A DNA stretch of 64,000 bases from Heterotrichella gracilis (lineage: Eukaryota > Sar > Xanthophyceae > Tribonematales > Xanthonemataceae): the NCBI GenBank assembly GCA_032358255.1, contig JAULBX010029931.1:1-64000 (forward strand), in the 5' to 3' direction. The position numbers and the translations under genes were made by a program. The notes under the pieces were generated by a model, which worked only from the letters and a program-made list of their open reading frames with translations, was not told the DNA's origin and made no database searches. Below, in pieces: positions 17,305-31,600 of this stretch (positions are counted from its first letter, which is position 1; every line of letters begins with the position of its first letter).

Positions 17305-20300
17305 TTAGCTGCTGACTGCCTTGCATCCCGTCGTCAGCGGCAGCCCTTCCGGCGACACCCGCTCAAACGCAAAGTCAAAGGTATCGGGCATGCCCACATG
17401 GTCAAAATCGTCAAACTCCGCTGTCCAGTTGAAGGGCGGCTGGTTCTGCGTGGTCGGCCCGTTGATGATCTCAGCATGCAATTTCATCGCCATGCTGTAG
17501 CTTGTCACCTTGGTATCCATGCACCCCTTGGGCACTGGGTGCACAGGGTCCAAATCCCCTCGCCCACACACAGCCCCAAGAGGGCTGCTCAAGGAGTACT
17601 GCACAGCACACATCAGATCTACGTTTAACCACATGAAAGGTTTGCAACGCAGTGCAAAGCTGCACCCATGTGCAGACAGCATAACAAACCCCAACTCCAT
17701 ATGCGCACGGTCTGATTTTCTGCATTCTGTACGACACCATGCAGCGTCAAGTGTCCTTCTTGCCGCACATAATTGCACAGACCCGTGGCAAGCCACTCAC
17801 CGGGTCGTGCTCCCACCCGTTGTAGCGCATGACCTTCTTGAAGTCCTCCAGCGAGGTCACATCCCCTTGGTCCCGGCGGAAAATCTTGGCGCGTGGCGAC
17901 ACCTGGTAGCTCAGCCAACTGGTGGCCTCAACAAACTGGGGGCCTCGGTCCCGCTGGCGCTGCGCAAAGTCGGGGTAGCCGGACTTGTTGTAGATGTCTG
18001 GGAAGTAGGCCACGTTGTATGAGGGCCAGTAGCCGCGCCCCAAGGTGTCTGTCATGTCCCCAGAGGCCACCTGGCCGGGGATTTGCTCCACCACCCACAG
18101 GAGGTCGGACATCAGCTCCTGCTTGGGAGGGGAATAATGGTGAGTGAGAGACAGCTTAGATGCTGTGGCAAAAGTAGAGGGGCCAGTGGCAACCCTGGCG
18201 TGACGTGGGACCATGGCGTGCATTGCTGCCAACCACATGCAGATGGACCCATCAAGCTTGCTGTCGCCTTTTGACCCGCACACAAAGCACACTCACAATG
18301 GTTTCCAGCATGTCTCCGACACAATTTCTACTCATTATCCTTTACTAATGCGATTACCTCCATATTTTACATATTTTAAAAAAAAAATGAATGACGTGAA
18401 CCCCCGCCCCAAAACAAAATGCAATTACTTGTTAATGACCGCCCACGAACCCTTACAAGACCAGGGCCCAGGCTGCCTCACCTGGTGGGGCTTGAACCTC
18501 TTGAGATCAATGATGATGTACTGGTTGTTGTAGGTCCCTGAGTTGTACTCCGCCATGGCGCTCGCCCACTGGCCACCGCTGTCCGACAGGAAGTTGGCCA
18601 CCCGCACCCGGTGCCAGCTCAGCAGCGACTGGGGCGTGAGCTGGCGGTACAGGGAGAAGTCGAAGATCTTGTTGGTTGTCTGCAGCACCACCAGGTGGTT
18701 GTCCATGATGTAGAAGTCATCGTCCGACACCAGCTCGCCATAGTAGCTGGAGAAGGACATGCGGTGCACCTTGATGCTCTGCAGGAAGGAGGGTGATGGA
18801 TTTGAGATTTAAGAAACAAAAACAGACCTTGCCCTCATGAGCTTGCCACAATTTTCAAGTGTTTGCAGCGGATGCACCCGCCACAATTGGTTGCGGGTTT
18901 TGCGTGCACGCAGGGGAAGTCCTTTAACAAACAGAGTGTATTTAACAAACATACAATTCGTTCAGCTTTACTGCTATTTTGTCCTGCCTGTACAAATGTT
19001 TCAATTTCTAATTCTTTTCACATTTATTATCAAGCCAAAACAGGGGTTGAATACTCAAATTAAACAGGTCCTGCTTCCACAGGAAGCAGCACACAGCCTG
19101 CGGGTACATACCGGGTTGTTGAGGTTGAGCTCGTAGTGCTTGTAGATGCGCAGCATGGCAGTGTATGTATCCCACGCCGATTGGCCCATCAGAATATCCC
19201 CTAGGTCAGCAGTGACCTTGACCAGCGCGCTGCACCGCCCACTGAGCTCCAGGTTCCTGATCAGCTGATCAGGTGCCCCAGCGCTGTAGCGGTCCCAGGG
19301 CTGGTGGACATCGTTTGGAAGGTCCAGCAGGTCATACAAGTCACCTGCACACGCAGCATGCATGTAAATCAGGGTCCCGGCTATGACTTCATTATTGCAG
19401 CAACTGATCAGTTGACAACCCCTTGGATTATCATTGTGATGGAAATGGTATGAATGGGTTGGACTATTTCCATCACATTGCTTTGTCACCAGTACCACCT
19501 GTCTGCATTTAGACAGGTAAATAACGAAAATGCATTTGATAGCCAGTACGCTTGGAGACATTATTATCCACAGAGCAGGACGTGTAAACTAATGTGCAGT
19601 CATTTACACGTCCTGCAACAACGAGATAGGCAGCAGCTAATTACTGAGGAGCAATGCCTACCATTAGACGCCAGCATCCAGAGGTCCCATTTGTCCAGCG
19701 TGCGTATGGCCGCCTCGTCGTTTGCAGCCTTTGCTGCGGCCTGGTACCCCGCCACCATGCCATCAAACTGAGTAAACACCAGCCCAGTGGCGTTCCACAA
19801 GACTGAATCATTGCTAGCAATCTGATTGCGCGCCCAGCTTTCTTGCACTTGCAGGAAGTGCAGTGGAACATCAAAAGTTGCGTTTATCTGCTTAATGAAA
19901 TATTGTTTTACGTTATACTGGTTCTGCGAAATCCTCCTTGCTGTAAGGAACCCTTCAATGAAGCCAGCCGCAAACATCTGCTCGCTGTCTGTGTAGTGTG
20001 AGTTGGTCACGACCCGCAGCTGAGCAAAATTGCTCTTGGTGAATTGCGAGTCCACAAACACGCCATGTGCGACAGCGCCTGCGAAAGCATTGCACGGGTC
20101 AAAACCTGATTTTGTACGTGTCTTTCACGTCCCGCTGGTAATTACAGAGATTCTGCAAGCAGACTGGATGCATCCTTCTCCAAAACAGTCTTGTGAGTCA
20201 GGTTTGTGGCTCCCTGAAATGACTGTCAAAAACATATAAAATCAACCTATCCTTGGGCATCACAATGACATGGTGCACCATGAGATGTGAACCTCGCTAA

Positions 20301-20871
20301 AGTTATGAAATCACTTTGTGAGTTCCCAAGCCACCACAGAGAGGGAGAGAGATTTGGGACACGCGCATGCATATACCCTTTCAAGCAGTGGGCCAATACT
20401 TCTCACGCACGAATACACAGCCAGCAACGTCAGCAGGTCAATATGAAGCTGTGCATGTTCCACTAAGTAGCTGAAATCGACACAACGAGTTCGAATTTTT
20501 TTTTGACTATTCACACCAACTGGCAGTGGGAACTGCACACTTTCGTTGGCATCTCTGGATGTGGCAACTGCAACGTAATGCCTGCACATGCTGACCAACA
20601 TTTGCATTCAGCTCAGCATCGCACTGAGCTGAAGCTCGAGCACGCTGTCATTGGTATTGTTTTTACCTCCTTGGATTCCGTCAGCAAGGTGCCAGTCGCC
20701 GTCCACCAGCAAAACGCTGCCCGACTCCCGGTGGGATGCCAAGCCATCATCGCACCCATTCTCCGTGAAAGCGTCGCTCAGAGCAAAAAGGGCGGGGACT
20801 GCCCAAGACACATATACAATACAAACACACGACATGTATCTCAACAGCCTGGAGCCACCATTGTGGTGCAT
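17305..20871 (-). CDS. Phospholipase B-like (PLBD/lamina ancestor) Ntn hydrolase, secreted or lysosomal
   Basis: Six exons: 20871-20667, 20078-19662, 19344-19112, 18778-18482, 18118-17801, 17598-17305; 587 residues, all in phase, against about 550-590 in animals and slime moulds. It opens with a hydrophobic signal-like stretch (SCVCIVYVSWAVPALFAL). Family blocks follow in order: GSVLLVDGDWHLADG; LRVVTNSHYTDSEQMFAAGF; SGRCSALVKVTADLGDILMG; SAWDTYTAMLRIYKHYELNL; SFSSYYGELVSDDDFYIMD; WHRVRVANFLSDSG; YNSGTYNNQYIIIDLKRF; YWPSYNVAYFPDIYNKSGYP; APRAKIFRRDQGDV-like; GCMDTKVTSYSMA. The Cys of GRCSALVK (about residue 245) matches the self-processing N-terminal nucleophile of the family. Animal members are acid hydrolases of phospholipids or N-acyl lipids. 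Vacuolar or secreted location is inferred from the signal sequence. Confidence 0.93.
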
Positions 20872-21449
20872 GGTGACAGGCCAGCTCCCAGGTAAGGTGG
20901 CGGTCAGTGTTGAGGCGGTGCTGAAGAATAGTAAACACCCAACGTTTGCTCCACACCACTTGTAGTCTACAACCACAAAACAAAATGGCGGCGATAGCTG
21001 TGTAAAGCGGTGTTCAAGACTTGCGCCGCAAGTTGCGGCCTTCGTTTGAAGGCTCAACTTCCAAGAAACTTTGCATGCTGGCACGATTTGCGGGACAGGT
21101 GTGCCAGCATGTGGTGCCCTCGGTGACTGCCACCTGGAAGCATGCCTCGAAATTGCAAATATATTATGTATTTGGACAGTAGAGAAATTTGTTTATTAAA
21201 AGCTTGCTAGCTAGCAGGCTCTATGAGGTGAGTGGAGACAGGGGCGAGATAACCACCAGGGTGAAGCACTGTACAGCAGTTCGCCACATTCGTGAGGTAC
21301 CCAAAGAACAGGTGGCCCTGTTGGAGTCCAACCTTGGTGATTTGGATTAATATATATCCTATATAGAGGATAAAAGGAAAGGTGCCACCTTGCTTGCTGA
21401 GAATTTTAATACGTGGCTGCCGCAGTGTGTGAATTGCTAACTTTGCTGT

Positions 21450-22080
21450 AGAAACGAGGAGGGAGGGGGGGGAGGGGGGACAAAGATATGGCTCAGGATT
21501 GGGGTGTGATATATTACAGAATTAAGTGCGTTGGGGAATGAAAACTTGTGTGATCCAGGCTGTGCAGATATGTAGCCTGTACGTGAAGTGTGGACTAGTG
21601 GTATGCTAGTTAACAGTGGCATGCCAGCACATCCTTTCACATATAACCACTGGCATTTAAAATGTGAAAGTTTATGCCATGTGGGCTATTCCTTGGTACA
21701 GCCCTGCAGGGGTGTTGGGTATGGAGGAGGGGGGGGGGGGAGGGGGGGAAAATATGTGGCTGTGTGAACGGTTCACCTCACTGCAACATTATAGAAAGAG
21801 AATGCAACGAGGGACAACGTGTGGCCTTGCAAATACACCCAACAAGACCAAAGGGCGCTAACCTTTGGGTACAGCCTTGTAGGAGTCCTGGGTATGGAGG
21901 AGGGAGGGGGGGGAGGGGGGGGAAATATGTGGCTGTGTGAACGGTTCACTTGGGTGCAAAAACATTTCAAAGAGGAATAATGGGGGGACAATATGTGGCC
22001 TAGGCCCAAGGCTTGAGAATGGTTTAGCTGCTCCAGGTAGCTCCAGAAGAATGGAGGCAGGGGTATGGGGGGAGGGGGTG
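21450..22080. repeat. Degenerate G-rich repeat family
   Basis: Two copies about 180 bases apart (around 21700-21830 and 21870-22000) share the order tacagcc, ggtatggaggagg, a G-run, then atatgtggctgtgtgaacgg. A related G-run block lies at 21455-21490, and a weaker one at about 22050. The G-runs are 6 to 13 long and could form quadruplexes. Confidence 0.8.
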
Positions 22081-22578
22081 TATGTGCCTGTAACTTGAGT
22101 AAGTTTAAAATCAGAGAATAGCTTCTATATTGGGTAGGCAAGGCAGTAACAATAGCGCATGCATGCATGCCGATGGTTGACCCGGTGCCAGCTAGCTTAC
22201 TACTGGTTGAACCGGTATGCATCGCCGGTGTGATCGTTTTATGCTGTTTATCCGGGCGGACAAGCGATCCGAGGCAGCAAAATGTTCGAGACGACGTCCG
22301 AAGCCGTTCGGCGGCCGCCTATGCGGGGACGGCAGGTGGGACGAAATCACGAGCCGTCGTGCCTGCAGAGCGTCGGCGGTCGACGGCGGAGGGTGCGAGC
22401 GTGCAGCACGGATGCAACCGGCGGTTTCACGAGCGTGCAGCATCACCCAAATAAAGCTTAAGCGGGGGACTCTAATAAAGCACTGCTGTGGCACTTTGTC
22501 AAACAAGCTGAGGCACATCAGCGCAACAAGACGCCACGGTGTTACCGTGTACCGCGCACAGTATGAGTTTATTTTGAA

Positions 22579-22583
22579 TTACA
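22579..22583 (-). promoter_or_regulatory. TGTAA polyadenylation signal of MsrA
   Basis: On the minus strand this reads TGTAA. It lies about 207 bases after the MsrA stop and beyond the SECIS candidate, so the SECIS would sit inside the 3' UTR as required. Confidence 0.5.
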
Positions 22584-22651
22584 AAGGCAGTGTTGTAGTT
22601 GAATTATAAGGCAGTACTGCTCACCAACAAGCTGCCCTGAGTGTGCACCCA

Positions 22652-22715
22652 GGTGTCTCGGTCCATTGCGCACTTGCCGTGTTGGACAAAAGGACGTCAT
22701 AAACAGGTGGACACC
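22652..22715 (-). promoter_or_regulatory. SECIS element candidate (selenocysteine insertion)
   Basis: In the MsrA 3' UTR on the minus strand, ATGAC (22700-22696) faces CGAG (22660-22657), giving the UGA/GA non-Watson-Crick quartet of a eukaryotic SECIS. Above it GTCC pairs with GGAC, with further U-A and G-C pairs. Twelve bases after the quartet an unpaired AA is followed by a small CAC...GTG hairpin, the type II apical arrangement. Below the core GGTGT (22715-22711) can pair with ACACC (22656-22652), or CACCT with GGGTG just beyond. Folding was done by eye. Confidence 0.75.
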
Positions 22716-22785
22716 GTTGCATAGCCTGCAGGCTGCGCATGCAACTGCATACCCTGCACCTAACACTGTGGTGGGAAGGAGGCAG

Positions 22786-23957
22786 CTAGAACCGCCCAAA
22801 CCCTGTGCGCTGCTTCTCGATGTACTTCTGGTGGTACTCCTCCGCGTCATACCAGGGCTTGGCAGCCGCCAGCAAGGTCCACACCTTCACCCCATGCTTT
22901 GCCTCGATGGTGGCGATAGCCTGCTGCGCTGCCAGCTTCTGCTCCTCGTTGAGGTACCATATGGCTGACTGGTACTGCGGCTTGCTGCGGTAGGTGGGGT
23001 TGTGCTCGGCGTAAAACACCTGCAGCACAGCCGGGAAAGAGACAGTTGGGTACGGCTGGCTGGCATACAAACTTGCTGCCTTGTACCACCCCTGCTGGAA
23101 CAACAACGCACAGACAAGGTTTTCGCTGGTAGCAGGCTGGTAGCAGGCTGGGCTGGGGAGAGTGTGGTGCAGGTGTTTTATGCCAAGCAAGTTTTATGCT
23201 GGACGCCACAGCAGAAACCAACCTCCACAAAGTAACACGTACCTTGAGGATTTCTTCGTATGATATGACAGAAGGGTCAAAGACCACCTTCATTGCCTCT
23301 GTGTGGCCGTCGCCCCCACACACAGTCCCATAAGTTGGGTCTGGGCTGTCCCCACCCGTGTAGCCCACCCTAGTGCTTAAGACACCCCGAAGTTTACTGA
23401 ATGTAACTTCCTGCAAGTGGACAGTGGCAGTTTCAGGAGAACTATGGTACAGGCGGAGGAGTTACTTGGGTACATACTTGCACTGGCAAACGCCAGGATG
23501 CACTGGAGGAACATTCGTCATGGACCGGAACAACTGGAACACGACCATCGCGACAAAACCCGCAAATGCATGCATATTTAATAATTATCATTCCGCTGAA
23601 GTTTGCGTGAAGATAGCTAGGGTGGTGTGAAAACCGCCCATATGGCAATGCATGCATGGCAACACATGCATGCATGGCACACAAGGTAGCTAGAAGCGTA
23701 CGCACAGGGTGCCAGAATCAGCCCAGTGCAAGCAGGGCAGTCTCGGGCTGCCGCTCAGGAGCCTTGGACGCCGTAGCTGAAGCCATCGTTGAGGCGGAGA
23801 GCTTCCTGGCTGAACGGGTGCGCAGCTGAGAGACCACTGCAGAGTGAGTGGCTATGGGCGCCGAAAGGCAGATCGTCGCTGGTGCTGTGCGGGTTGCCAA
23901 AGCAGGTTTTGCCGTGTAGATTGGCTGCAAAGCAGCAGCCCTCACAACCTTTAACAT
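22786..23957 (-). CDS. MSRA: Selenoprotein peptide methionine sulfoxide reductase A (in-frame UGA = Sec)
   Basis: Three exons: 23957-23706, 23410-23243, 23019-22786; 217 residues if UGA at 23720-23718 is read as selenocysteine (Sec80). MsrA reduces methionine-S-sulfoxide in proteins through a nucleophile in the motif GCFW. Here the frame reads ALLALG-UGA-FW-HP and then splices in phase at GTGCGT to [20 protein letters not shown], so Sec stands exactly at the catalytic position, as known from a Chlamydomonas MsrA. Further family blocks are [27 protein letters not shown] and [13 protein letters not shown]. The first ~50 residues look like an organelle transit peptide ([17 protein letters not shown]). 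A SECIS candidate lies in the 3' UTR. Standard gene callers would end the protein at the UGA. Head-to-head with PAF1, 461 bases apart. Confidence 0.9.
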
Positions 23958-24418
23958 GCTGCCTTTGTCGTCGTGCAGGAAACAACAACTTCCAACGCCA
24001 TGCGCGAGCCTTAGTAAGGCTCAGCTTGGGGTGTTTCGCCTGTGCTATACATATAATGTCCGCCCCTTGCTGGCCCCACTTGGGCACCACCATGTCATAA
24101 AGCCCACCAGTGTCAAAAGCTGTTCACAGTTTCTAAACAAAGCCCAGCAACTTTGCAGCCACCTGCTGACCAACAGTGCCGATATCTGGGCAGATTTTTG
24201 GTCTTGTATCTCACTTGGGCTGGGGCATCTCCTTCTCACATGCTTGGGACACCAATAAAGGCAGCGACTTGTAAAGTACAACAGAAGAACATCAGATGGT
24301 TGAATTAACCTTGATAATGTTGATAATGTTGCCTTCGTGACTTGTAGCACCTGACAAGCAGCCCTAAGAGGATGAACTGCAGAAGGATTAGCCAATAGAG
24401 CTGAGACTGGGCCACGCC
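23958..24418. promoter_or_regulatory. Divergent promoter region MsrA / PAF1
   Basis: These 461 bases separate two outward-pointing start codons. TGATAATGTTGATAATGTTG, a small direct repeat, lies at about 24311-24330. No certain core promoter element was identified. Confidence 0.5.
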
Positions 24419-27400
24419 ATGGCTGATGTATCTGTTCATCTGCCCTCAGCACCGCCCACGCAACATGCAGGTCACAGGTACGCCATAGTCACCTCTAGTC
24501 TAGGCATGGCATGTCGTTTGCCCTTTGTACGACAGGGCTATCGCTGATTACAACGTGAAACACAGGCTACAAGAAACTCCAGAGCAGAGGAAGATTAGGA
24601 AGGAAAGAGAGGTTCGGAAGGAAAAGGAGAGGCGGGAACAGGTAATTGTTCGTTATTGTTGCCGTCTCAACAAGCTGATTGTAACCTGTGAGGTTGTACG
24701 AAGCCAAATGCGTGTGATGCACTTTCAGGAGGCGAGGCAACGAGAGAAAGCCAAACACGCTGTTAACACAGTCAAGGCCAGCCATGACAACCGACTAACT
24801 CGCCCCACGCCGTTTATGTGCAATATCCGGTTCACAAATGACCTTCCTGAGGTAACGCTGCTGGTGTACCGTTTGCCAATTCTATATGCATGCATTGTGC
24901 AATGTGCGACTCCAGGCAAGGATCTCAACTTAATTGCTGGTTTGCTCATATTTGGCAAGTTTTGTTAGCGCATGTTGTTACTTGGCTGCAGATTCCCTGT
25001 GATCCCAAGATGCTCATCACCCCGTTGCAACCGCAACAACTTGCTGAGTTCCAACTAACCTCACTTGAGCGAGAACCAAAACGTGACCTGGTTTTCGAGC
25101 CTGACCTGGGTATTCAAGTGAGCATGCTGGACGTGCACAAGTATGTCGCTCCTGACGTCCCACCAGCGCTGGATCCCGAGGACGCGGCGCTCATCCAAGT
25201 AGGTGCCCTGCTGGCATGTGTGCGCATGGTATGAGTAATGAGAGAACCACGAGATCATTGCACAAGGCAGCTGGCAGAAAGGAAAAAATAATTGCCCACT
25301 GCAGCCCCGGCGGGAACGGCATGCTTGCACATGGAGGCATTCGCCCCGGGCGCACTTGCACCTGCAGTTCCCATGCATTGCCGAGCCCATCCACTGCATC
25401 ATCGCCACACAATTAAACAACGCACACGCCACCCCCGCCCAGCCGCCACCCCCGCCGCACCCGCACAGGACGATGACGAGGGCGTGGAGGTGGGCGGGCC
25501 CAACAAGGTGCGCGACAGGCTGCGCGGCAACAAGGCGGAGCTGTCCTGGCTCATGCGCACCACCTACATATCAAACGACTTCAGCGCCAAGCGAAAGGCG
25601 GCTACAGCGCAGAAGGCCAAGCTCGAGGAGGTGGTGCCTGAGCTGGATGATCGGGAGGCGCAGATCGCAGCCATTGAGGTGGGTGGTGGGTGGGGTGGGT
25701 GAACAGGGTTAGGACGCCCAAGGTGGGAAGTAAAATTTTCATAAAATCTTTATAGAAATTTTCATAGAAATTTGATTGATTTTGAAGTTATTTTCCAGGG
25801 TGTGCGGTGGTGCGTGATTGTGTTTCATGGGCATGCATGACATTCCCATCGACTCGCAGGAGAAATCCTGCTCATGATAGTCATATGGTTACACCAATGC
25901 TGCCTGGTAAAATTGGTAGAGGTCAAACCTTGCATTGCTCTACTGGGTGTGATTTGGTATGGCGTGGAAGGGAGATGGAGGGCGCTGTGCTTGTGAGAGA
26001 GGAGGGGGAGCACATATTATGCAACCATGTGGCAATCATGTGCGTGCATGTATAGCCTGGCAGGACTGTAAAAGTGGCATGGGAATAACACCAGGCAGCA
26101 TCTGTGGGCGATGCGGGTGAGCGATGATTGGTGTGGGCATGTGTTTGCAGGCATCATTTGAAGCCGCGCAACAACCGCCTGTGCACTTCAAGAACCCCAA
26201 CCTGCGGCCAGTGGAGATTCTTCCAGGTATGGGGTGCACATGTTACATGGCTGATGCGCCATGTGCCCAAATCAGTTGCTGCATGCGATGTGGTTGCACT
26301 CGACCCCCATGTGCACTTGGACCAGTTAAGTACTGATACGGCCACATGCACTGCCACACCAATCACCTTGCTTAAAATATCAGCAGCGCAGAATGCAGAC
26401 CATGCCATAGTTGTCCACTAGTGCACGGGATCCATGCCTCCCCCTCGTTTGCACCAAACCTCACCCCATTCTTGCCACCTGGCAGTGCTCCCCGATCTTG
26501 AGCACTGGGGCAACAACTACGTGCTGGTCAGCTTCGACAACGACCCAGCGGCTGAGGCGGGCCAGTTTTCAAAGCACTCAGCTGCTGAGCGCGAGCTGGT
26601 GGCGGAGCATGGCATCCTCAAGCGCTACACGTGCGGCACCGACCAGTTTGTGGACTACCTGGTGCCCAATCAGGCGCCGACTGCGGGCGAGGATGGGTGC
26701 GTGGGGCGGGGTTAGGGGTTAGGGGGGCGCACGGGATGCGGATCAAGGGCATGAGTTTCTTCTATAGGGGCAGGGCCGTTGGTTGGCTACCGTGCACCGC
26801 CATGCAGCTAGATGATACCTTTTCCTGTGCATGCACTTATCATCCTGCGTCCACCTTGCATCTGCCCCCCACCATGCATGGTTGGCAGCACGCAACTGGC
26901 ACCACCATGCACCATCCGCATGCTCTACATGCTCGCATCGCCACCCCTGTTCCACCCCCCACACCCCCCTTACAGGTCCGTCGACCCCGACGAGCTGGAG
27001 GGCGACTACGAGTGGGTGCGGGAGTACGGGTACAAGGTGGACCGCGACGAGCGCGCCGCCACCTACCTCATGTGCCTCAACAGCTCCTCCGCCACCTATA
27101 ACGACCTCAACGTCAAGCTCAAGCTGCAGCGGCGCAAGCGGGCGGGGCTGGATCCCAGCCAGATGAGCGAGCAGCAGCAGGAGGAGTGGCAGACCAAGGT
27201 GCAGCGGCCAGCAAAGGTGGGTGTGGGGTGGCGCGGGTGTTTGAGGGCGTGGGAAGTGGGGGAAGGGAGATGGGGGTTGTTGCTTGCGGTGCGCATAGGT
27301 GGTGGGGGGGGGGGGGGGGCATTTCACTGCCACACACAACGTCTGGCAGCGCCTGGGCATGTTTTACCCACAGCCACGCAGTTGTCCAACGCTGGCGCAG

Positions 27401-27813
27401 CGCATTGCACAAAGCTAAATTTGCGTGCATGTGACACCCACCGAATGGATTTATGTTCTTGCAATTAAGGTCTTGGAAATGGACAGCGTTGCAAGAAAGG
27501 CTCTGAAGCTAAGCTACGGTATATGCCATATCACATGGCTCGAGTGAAATTGAAGCATCCAATTGACACCATGCTGGTTGTGCGACCCCAGATCACTCTG
27601 AAGCGCCGTGGCATGAACGAGGACGAGGCCGCTGAGCACACGCACAAGGTTGCAAAGCTGACCAGCCAGGGTGAGGGGGAGGCGTATGGGGAGCAGTACC
27701 AGGGTCAAGGGGAGGGCATGGGGCCGGGCCAGGGGGGGTCGCAGGCGCTGGAGAGGGACAGGCAACAGCAGGAGGACCCCCGAGCGGGGCTGGAGGATGA
27801 GTACAGCGACTGA
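24419..27813 (+). CDS. PAF1: PAF1, RNA polymerase II-associated factor (Paf1 complex subunit)
   Basis: Nine exons: 24419-24477, 24536-24641, 24729-24851, 24992-25198, 25469-25678, 26151-26226, 26486-26696, 26976-27216, ~27496-27813; about 516 residues. After a charged N terminus (KIRKEREVRKEKERREQ), PAF1 blocks follow: FMCNIRFTNDLPEIPCDPK, SLEREPKRDLVFEPDLG, LSWLMRTTYISNDF, ASFEAAQQPPVHFKNPNLRP, VEILPVLPDLEHWGNNYV, EWVREYGYKV, LKLQRRKRAG. A Gln/Gly/Glu-rich acidic tail ends EDEYSD. PAF1 couples elongating Pol II to H2B ubiquitylation and H3K4/K36 methylation; the plant homologue is ELF7/VIP2. Exon 1 (MADVSVHLPSAPPTQ) is placed by phase and a good GT site. The acceptor of the last exon (27495/27496) is the least certain junction; it was chosen because it keeps the frame into LVVRPQITLKRRGMNEDEA. 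Confidence 0.9.
27304..27320. repeat. Poly(G) run
   Basis: A run of about 17 G lies in PAF1 intron 8 on the coding strand. It is a simple-sequence tract and a likely polymerase-slippage or quadruplex site. Confidence 0.85.
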
Positions 27814-28662
27814 GCAGGCATAATTGATCAATGTCGTCAAGGATTGGACTGCTCAACAGTGGTTTTTGTGCAGATGCATAGGCAGGTTGCACCGCATCAC
27901 CCACTTAGTGATTCAACCCAGTCACTGTTAGCTGGCCGCTTTGCCTGCTTGAAGGAGCAACGCACTAGATTGTACCATCCGTGTGGTTGCATCAAAGTGG
28001 TTATATTGAGGGGAATTTCAAACAGAACAGGATTCCACTGCAGCTCGCAATGTGACGGGAGGTTGCAATGTCATGGCTTGCGTAGGCCCGTGCAAGTTGC
28101 AACCAATTGGTGGGTGAATGCTGCATATGCAGCTGAACTTTTTTGGGCATTTTGCCTCACTCATGATCAAATCATGTTGGATTGTAACGTTCGTTGCTGT
28201 TTACAGTTTGCCCATGGAAGACGTCTTCTCACTAGGTGCATCACAGTGGAATAATTCTTTATGTACAGCTACAAATATACAAATTGTATGGACCGTACCA
28301 GATGTCCTTGTACCCGCCCACTCAATGTAAAACCAGCTCATTGAGTTTGGCTTGCACTGGGCCAGGCTGCTATAAAATTCCAATGCCATTGGTGGCACCA
28401 CAGCAAGTGGACATTAGGTTGTAAATAGCGGAAAAACTTATTAAAACTGATTGCAGAAAGAAGCGAATTGATGACAGACTCTGATGGCCTTGTGTTGAGG
28501 GCCCTCAGTGGAACGATCGCTCACCGTGCTATGTATGATGTAACTCCGACCTTGACAGCCGCTGCAACTGTCTGGAAGACGTCGTGGCAACTGCCCAAAT
28601 ATGACCTGGTCCCCACCACAACGTGGCGAATGTGGGCTGCACCACATGGCACCTGCTTCACT
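27814..28662. other. Convergent intergenic region PAF1 / DNA polymerase
   Basis: Both flanking genes end here. TGTAA on the plus strand at about 28184 and TGTAAA at about 28420 could end PAF1. TTACA at about 28201 (TGTAA on the minus strand) could end the polymerase transcript, so the two 3' UTRs may overlap. No gene is seen. Confidence 0.45.
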
Positions 28663-31600
28663 TCACAGCTGTGCCTCCGAGGCAGTGAGTGTGGCCATGC
28701 TTCCCCATTTTTGCCCCTGCTGCAGATTGACGATGAGCGGCACGCTCATGCGGGACACGCCTGCATGTGCATGAAACTGGTTATGAGGGAGGATCACCAA
28801 GGCAATACTTGTACCTCAAGCAAAAAAAGGTTGGTATCACTGCACTGATATGTGGTCAACTCACCCACATCACAGGTAGCTCAACGAGTCCTACAGCTCC
28901 TCCTCAGATGGCATAACATTATTAGATGAACAAAAATAGCATGGCTTTCAAAGGTAATTGCACTTCATTTGCAAGAGTTATGAAAAGTACAAAACCACGC
29001 TATGAATGCCATGCCTCGATGAACACCCCCTTCTCACCTTCCATGACCTCCTTGATTGCCCCCGCCACCTGCGCCAGCCTGCACCGCCCCGTGTCCACCT
29101 CAAACAACAGCTCATCGTGAATCTGCGCAACCAGCCGGACAGGTGGCACCGCAGCAGGGCTGCCAGGTGGCGACGCGGGGAACAGCGCCGCTGCCGCCAG
29201 TGGCCACCTCACCATTGCGAGCTTGATCAGGTCGGCCGCGCTGCCCTGGATGGTGCTGTTGATGGCCTTGCGCTCAGCCTCTGCCACAGACCTGCGCGCG
29301 GCGAGAAATGCAATCAGGGCTTGGGGCCAGGGCACTGGCATAGTTCAAGCGTTCCCGGTTTTCCACACTGGGGCATTTGTATGGTACTATTCGAACTTGC
29401 ATGTATCAGCTATGTGTTTCACAAAATACGTGCCATCCTCATGCATGACTAATGTAAATACCCTGTATGGCTCCTGCCTACCTGGCATCAGTGGCAGCCA
29501 GCGCTGGTATTGGCCTCCTCCTGCCAAACAGCGTGAGCACCTGTCCCATGGCCCGAGCCTCAGTCTTGGTGCGCTCAAGGAACGCACGCACCTGTACCAC
29601 ATTGCAGGGTTTAGGTTAGGGCTGAGGGTGTGTGGCGGAAGGCTTTGTGCAGATTCATGCCACACAAAGGTGACTTCTCCCTCTGAAGCAGGGTACTACT
29701 GCTGTTCGTTTCGCCACCGGCGAGCACAAATCAGGCCGCATCCTATATTTGAGCATTGCCATCCCCGCTGCAGCCATTGCACGGTCATGACTGCGCTTGC
29801 CAAGGTATCCATATGCCGGTCGAGTGCATTGGTGTTATCAGTAACTACATGCCAATTGGAGGTATCCATACCCCAGGGAAATGGGAGAGGAAGGAGTTGA
29901 TGAGCCTTTTTGCAGCTGGCACATTGCAGTGGAGATTTTGCGCTAGGCCAAAGGGCGTGAGACCGTAGACGATGCCGTAGGTGACACTCTTGGCCTTGGT
30001 GCGCTCCTCGGGGGTGACAACAGCACCGCCTGCGCCTGAGGAGGAAACCAAGGGGCCCAGAATAAGTTAGAAGTAAACTTTGGTAAAGGGTAAGATATGG
30101 CAGCAGAAAGGGAGAAGTTATTGGAAGAAATAGATATGGCTATCATTATTACCATGTGCCTTTGCATCACAAGTCCACTTCATCCTTTCGGACGATTGCA
30201 ATTCCAGTAATGCAGTAACCCATTCCATGGGCATACAACATTGGTAGATATTAAAATGAAGAAGGGCCGACAGGTCACTGCATCTAGAAAAGAAGAAAAA
30301 CCACCGCCTCCCACCTGCGCTGCCTGTCCCTCGCAGCCACGCTGCGGCGATGATGGAGAATGCGTCCCCCGCAGCGCCTGCTTGGCGCAGTATTGCCCCC
30401 AACGCTTGATCCTCCGACAGGTGCGCCAGGATGCGCAGCTCAATCTGGCTGTAGTCAGCAGAAACCAGCACACAGCCTGGGGAATCGAGGGGGTGGACCC
30501 ATCATATGCAATATGCACGCGGTTTAAGCTGTCCTCTGTTTGTTTTCTTTCAAGGGTTTTGGAATCACTTTTGTGGCGATGGAAGGTGGATGGATGCATT
30601 GGTAGGTTGTTTGCACAGGTCATGCTGCGGAGATTACCTGGAGGCGCGACAAATGCGTCCCGGATGTTGATTGTGTATTCGCCCTCCTGCACCTCACTCC
30701 CCCGGCTCCCTGACTGGATGCTGTACTTGGTCACAGCCTGAAGGGATCAAACAGCATTTACTGGGGTTTTGCATCCATTGCCAATAGGATCTGTTTGCTC
30801 TTTATGACATGACATGCGCTCCAATAGTAAATCAGACAGGCAGGCCTTGTGGAGTTCCATTCATTGTATACTGCAATCATTGATTTGTAATGATACACGT
30901 TGCAAAATGCACCCTGCCTAACCCCCACTATTCCACTCATGCAGTTGGCCTTGCGTGGGTGCCGTCAGCCATCACAACTGCAATGTCCCACCACTCACCA
31001 TCAAGTTGGGCCCACACGATGACAGCCGCCCTGTGGCGGTGGCCGTCTGGTTCCATGTGCAGCGCACACGCGGTGGCGGGCCGCCACCCCCCCCAGCAGC
31101 AGCTTCAGCATGCGCGCGCGCCACCCAGACGGGCTCCATCCACTTGGTGATCATGTTTTGTAGGGAGCGGTACTCGAGCACCAGGGAGGGGAGGGGGTGC
31201 AGGTGCTCCAGCTGGTGCAGGGCTGCCTCGTCTGTGGGGTGGTGAGTCTTGGCGGTATTCCTGTACAATTTGTAATATCATCTGACACAGAATGTGGTGG
31301 GACACTCCAAGCTGAATCGGGTCTACGACCAAGAACCTCGGGAGAAGGAATAAAGCTGGATGGGTTTCTGAAGGCAGTATACTCAGATAGCATGAAATTG
31401 TGCGTGCATTATAATGCACGCCTAAATTCTCAGACATTGCTTTGTAGGCAACCAAGATTCTCAGCCATTAGACTGTAAGGATCGATAGGGCACGATGAGC
31501 CGGCTGTTCCACCCGACCTGCAGCACATCCACTAGGCACCACATGGTACACCGCACCCAGACCACCACTCAACCCCGCTCCCCGCCCCGCCACCCACCTG

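Follow-up and report, generated by a model that had tools for sequence, protein, structure and literature searches.

A methionine sulfoxide reductase A (MsrA) gene of Heterotrichella gracilis, read on the minus strand of a 64,000-nucleotide stretch (the window), very probably encodes a nuclear selenoprotein. Judging from the sequence, an in-frame UGA at 23720–23718 would be decoded as selenocysteine (Sec) with the help of a SECIS hairpin in the 3′UTR, and the protein, a predicted methionine-S-sulfoxide reductase A, would lack a C-terminal resolving Cys. This reading draws on the exon structure, on the register of the UGA within the family, on a hairpin behind the gene and on a genome that contains most of the Sec machinery together with UGA codons in two further genes.

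Gene structure and position of the UGA

Frame reading, profile matches and exon joining give three exons on the minus strand, 23957–23706, 23410–23243 and 23019–22789, which together encode 217 residues and are followed by the terminator TAG at 22788–22786 (exon 3 with its stop codon, 22786..23019). Upstream of exon 1 the frame is closed by a stop at 24023; the two candidate start codons are the ATGs at 23957 and at 23786. The last base of exon 1, 23706, is followed by the donor GTGCGT with its GT at 23705; ACTTGCAG directly precedes the start of exon 2 at 23410, and the join is in phase with exon 1. Exon 2 (23243..23410) ends in ...EEILK, with its last base at 23243 followed by the donor GTACGT, and TGCTGCAG directly precedes exon 3 at 23019. 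The sole internal stop of the joined frame is the TGA at 23720–23718, found by reading the sequence directly around 23700; it is residue 80 of the long form, 12 bases ahead of the exon 1 donor, in the context ALLALG-U-FWHP at the MsrA catalytic Cys site. The remaining 216 codons are open and the intron borders are GT/AG. The original prediction had placed a UGA within 23715..23723 and an in-phase GT splice from 23706 to 23410, leading into the conserved MsrA block; the codon was found there and the junction is exact.

Membership of the family is clear when the Sec residue is written as Cys in the PMSR and TIGR00401 queries. The 160-residue form that starts at the second ATG matches Pfam PMSR (PF01625) over positions 1–150 of 153 (E 7.6e-43, 146.8 bits, cut-off 23.7), and the TIGR00401 msrA match is likewise above its cut-off (131.5 vs 108.1 bits). 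A search of solved structures at E up to 0.001 matched 30 distinct sequences, each of them named as a methionine sulfoxide reductase; 4lwm, the Clostridium oremlandii MsrA, is one of them, at E 7.8e-32. The UGA residue stands opposite the Cys of GCFW in all three printed structure alignments. The site is covered in 11 of 12 relatives from GTDB genomes and is Cys in each of the 11; the twelfth, L060, starts downstream of the catalytic site and so falls outside the count. A scan of a viral contig collection confirmed no relatives. These alignments, with the structures and the 11 bacterial relatives, bear out the original prediction that the UGA occupies the place of the Cys in the family's G-C-F-W. 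We thus find, as in selenoproteins, an in-frame UGA at the Cys position of the homologues, flanked to either side by conserved coding sequence; we estimate that a random stop would fall on exactly the catalytic residue in about 1 in 140 domain positions.

Two further features of the product stand out. A single Cys follows the Sec (TVCGGD, in exon 2) and exon 3 has none, so the C-terminal part of the protein is without a resolving Cys and the gene resembles 1-Cys-type Sec-MsrA. At the other end, Asp and Glu are absent from residues 1–57 of the long form, which hints at a possible targeting peptide.

A SECIS-like hairpin behind the gene

Our own scanner, combined with folding, identified a SECIS-like hairpin with outer helices and a type II-like mini-stem at 22623..22733 on the minus strand, in the presumed 3′UTR. 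Its core, 85 nt beyond the MsrA stop codon, consists of AUGA at 22700–22697, an apical AA at 22683–22682 and GA at 22659–22658, and its mini-stem is short, at 3 pairs. The scanner asks for RUGA followed after 10–14 nt by AA, then for a GA on the 3′ side and for 7 or more pairs that span the AA. It returned one match in the presumed 218-nt 3′UTR, which is also the sole match within 2,001 nt downstream, and a match of any kind in 3 of 300 dinucleotide shuffles, all three of which fold better than the MsrA hairpin. With a looser topology, both strands of the window hold 29 matches, 18 of them (the MsrA hairpin included) at −8.7 kcal/mol or lower, and the chance expectation for a match in 218 nt is therefore about 0.05. 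Taken alone as a SECIS, the hairpin is thus suggestive, not compelling.

Its detailed layout is more restrictive. Once a mini-stem beyond the bulge is required, four places are left on the two strands of the window, and the combination of a 4-nt bulge with a 1-nt bulge occurs in the MsrA hairpin only. The same bulge layout is seen in the hairpins behind the SelW (CGAU) and SelT (CSSU) genes described below, and in a scan of both strands of seven further algal loci, 135,456 bases in all and with the SelW and SelT loci among them, it is confined to those two hairpins, with the layout criterion chosen post hoc, when the three hairpins had already been seen. The MsrA hairpin is the weakest of the three, its helix II with apex folding at −8.7 kcal/mol vs −24.9 for SelW and −10.5 for SelT. 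Under the SECIS constraint it is 1.3 kcal/mol less stable than when folded freely; the constraint costs nothing for SelW and SelT, whose SECIS-like hairpins are already the minimum-energy fold. When the SelW and SelT hairpins are aligned by MAFFT, a gap offsets their apical AA sites by one column. The whole MsrA 3′UTR is not unusually structured (z +1.04).

When 21500–24500 was searched against Rfam with E values up to 10 allowed, six matches came back, of which none is a SECIS, and SECIS_1 missed the MsrA hairpin. Run genome-wide, SECIS_1 also missed the SelW and SelT hairpins and gave one sub-threshold match elsewhere, on C19, a site at which Rfam at E up to 0.01 returned nothing. Further along the minus strand, at 22579..22583, we noted by eye a TGTAA, a motif that we take to be the green-algal poly(A) signal; if this candidate serves as such, the hairpin would fall inside the mRNA.

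The genome contains three further MsrA genes (C49, C465 and C54), each with GCFW. As a control we scanned 1.65–1.73 kb from the matched exon onward in each of these Cys-MsrA genes: two gave no match, and the C465 gene gave one SECIS-like match with a layout unlike that of the MsrA, SelW and SelT hairpins.

Selenocysteine machinery and other UGA-containing genes

A Sec-MsrA was originally predicted to imply a working Sec machinery in this alga, and searching the genome recovered most of it, namely tRNA-Sec, SepSecS, eEFSec, an SBP2-like domain and selenophosphate synthetase in a Cys form. The tRNA-Sec, with anticodon tca, scores 77.1 bits against a gathering score of 47 (C651). SepSecS is represented on C148 by seven exon-like matches, each of which scores below the cut-off for the whole protein, as single exons would be expected to do. 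Domain 4 of eEFSec was found on C58 and in none of 14 control genomes. An SBP2-like L7Ae domain was located on C563 by domain search only; the joined exons there match SECIS Binding Protein 2 (7zjw) at 3.7e-14, the next best being an L7Ae protein at 1.4e-4. An intron-bearing selenophosphate synthetase lies on C80 as six exon-like matches with Cys, not Sec, in the N-terminal motif MRCGGCGSKV. The machinery contigs resemble the window in composition: the stretches examined have a GC content of 51–58%, CpG observed/expected of 0.49–0.59 and ORF coverage of 0.05–0.30, and the window has 0.53, 0.56 and 0.10–0.40, respectively.

PSTK was not found over the genome with TIGR03575. Two PF08433 matches at one locus, considered as PSTK, are read as KTI12 from the motifs of that locus. 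Exon splitting or short exons, divergence or an alternative kinase could explain why the searches did not return PSTK.

Several other matches were set aside. The tRNA-Sec search gave three matches in all, and the two below the cut-off (C825 and C244) match as ordinary tRNAs; C825 carries a dense tRNA array. Six PF01248 matches on five contigs, tried as SBP2, are read instead as RPS12, NHP2, RPL7A, SNU13 and RPL30. The SelD search returned nine matches on four contigs (C111, C1, C80 and C68, the last at 53.3 bits), and those on C111 and C1 were rejected as algal, being intronless bacterial contamination (ORF coverage 0.85 and 0.93; GC 0.39 and 0.36) and unlike both the window and the machinery contigs. 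The assembly thus contains bacterial-looking contigs with dense ORFs and low GC; C552, C127 and C825 may likewise be bacterial, or else organellar.

An Rdx-family search identified three loci, two of which carry an in-frame UGA at a CxxU motif. The first (L029, G000:C193) reads MSGKAVAIHVVYCGA*GYKSKYLQMKQ, a SelW-like sequence with CGAU, its UGA at locus positions 1925–1923 on the minus strand; roughly 400 nt beyond the TAG of this gene there is a strong SECIS hairpin of type II-like form. The second (L030, G000:C395) reads MHISVCSS*GYR followed by a SelT-like body, with the UGA of CSSU at locus positions 2063–2061 on the minus strand; its apparent terminator is TGA, and a SECIS-like hairpin lies 43 nt past the stop. 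With U written as C, both are above the cut-off of TIGR02174 (CXXU_selWTH), and from their sequences we read them as probable SelW and SelT. A simple pattern search of the third locus, C475, found no CxxU.

Eight matches to glutathione peroxidase (GPx) are spread over six contigs, five of which show an active-site Cys (C135, C802, C185, C552 and C127); the C552 and C127 genes are intronless. A TGA in a C135 match was considered as Sec and rejected: that stretch differs from the Cys-bearing one and looks intronic. A GPx-like locus, L064 (G000:C447:21031), reads NVASE-UGA-PLQ/NVNYPGL given a donor CAG/GTGAGA, which places a UGA in the catalytic register. The residues beside it are odd (PLQ vs the family's G-x-T), two scanner matches in 8 kb are neither of them convincing, and a missed micro-exon is possible.

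Other readings, mechanism and known systems

With these data at hand, the other ways of accounting for the TGA can be weighed. A TGA is one base away from a Cys codon, and it is conceivable in principle that a TGC or TGT of an ordinary Cys-MsrA gene was misread in sequencing or assembly, but the gene has a SECIS-like hairpin behind it and lies in a genome where SelW and SelT also carry UGA at their Sec sites and Sec machinery is present; we consider such an error very unlikely. Still less probable is a pseudogene with a premature stop, for which an in-frame stop within the first coding exon would speak: the stop coincides with the very residue expected to be Sec, the rest of the frame and its splice borders are intact as described above, and the product matches PMSR almost end to end.

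The presence of in-frame UGA in at least three genes could also mean that the nuclear code reassigns UGA to Cys or Trp, without any SECIS. Against this, the SelT gene apparently terminates at TGA, all three UGAs stand at known Sec sites, and tRNA-Sec and dedicated factors were found, so that reassignment ranks below even the pseudogene in likelihood. Finally, since the UGA lies so close to the splice donor, alternative splicing or exon skipping might drop the TGA and supply a Cys codon, an event that the original prediction had named as one of its refutations. At the sequence level, no contiguous G-C-F-W coding stretch occurs on either strand of 20001–30000, in a search blind to motifs divided by an intron; an alternative Cys exon near the gene is therefore unlikely, and we regard this as the most improbable of the readings considered.

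Under the preferred reading, a Sec-MsrA, we infer a course of decoding and catalysis as follows. The SBP2-like factor would bind the SECIS hairpin (core 22700–22658) and eEFSec would carry Sec-tRNA to the UGA at 23720–23718. In the finished enzyme, the Sec selenolate would attack methionine sulfoxide and become oxidised, and since there is no C-terminal resolving Cys, glutaredoxin, glutathione or another external thiol would probably regenerate it. Rather doubtful, though conceivable, is that the ATGs at 23957 and 23786 give rise to two forms, a short one that stays in the cytosol and a long one whose Arg/Ala/Ser-rich, acid-free presequence directs it, with its selenocysteine, to the chloroplast or the mitochondrion. 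If so, the long form would be an algal selenoprotein targeted to an organelle and reliant on an external thiol in that compartment.

Standard gene prediction is expected to truncate MsrA at the UGA or to skip the catalytic motif, and annotation of Heterotrichella gracilis could thus lose the active site. Together with SelW and SelT, the MsrA locus points to the use of selenium by this alga, and the three genes provide local SECIS-like elements with one common layout. Large algal selenoproteome surveys have been published (PMC7539508, PMC6627142); the present gene is one more data point for algal selenoproteins, whose patchy distribution is already known, and leaves the overall picture unchanged.

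Algal Sec-MsrA has already been reported in Chlamydomonas, Ostreococcus and Thalassiosira, and the gene described here is a further example. For Chlamydomonas reinhardtii, which the original prediction had cited as precedent, the selenoproteins listed in a review include MsrA (AAN32904), SelT, SelW1 and SelW2 (PMC9404770). The same review calls Sec-MsrA Chlamydomonas-specific, a statement contradicted by table 2 of PMC2375036, where MsrA appears among the selenoproteins of Ostreococcus and Thalassiosira. Compared by description only, the green alga is alike in having a Sec-MsrA alongside SelW and SelT, and the present genome has the three Cys-MsrA genes in addition. Ostreococcus and Thalassiosira, again by description only, share the MsrA selenoprotein and belong to different lineages; almost all SECIS elements of O. 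tauri are described as having a long mini-stem (PMC2375036), unlike the 3 pairs found behind MsrA here.

A parallel in catalytic design is the 1-Cys-type Sec-MsrA of Clostridium oremlandii, in which, according to the description in PMC4479559, Sec is catalytic, there is no C-terminal resolving Cys and reduction is by glutaredoxin, not thioredoxin. Catalytic Sec and the lack of a C-terminal resolving Cys would thus be common to both proteins. The clostridial enzyme differs in its bacterial decoding and, as described with its structure (4lwm), in an extra C-terminal helical domain (residues 145–209); it has no Cys, whereas the algal protein has the one Cys of TVCGGD after the Sec.
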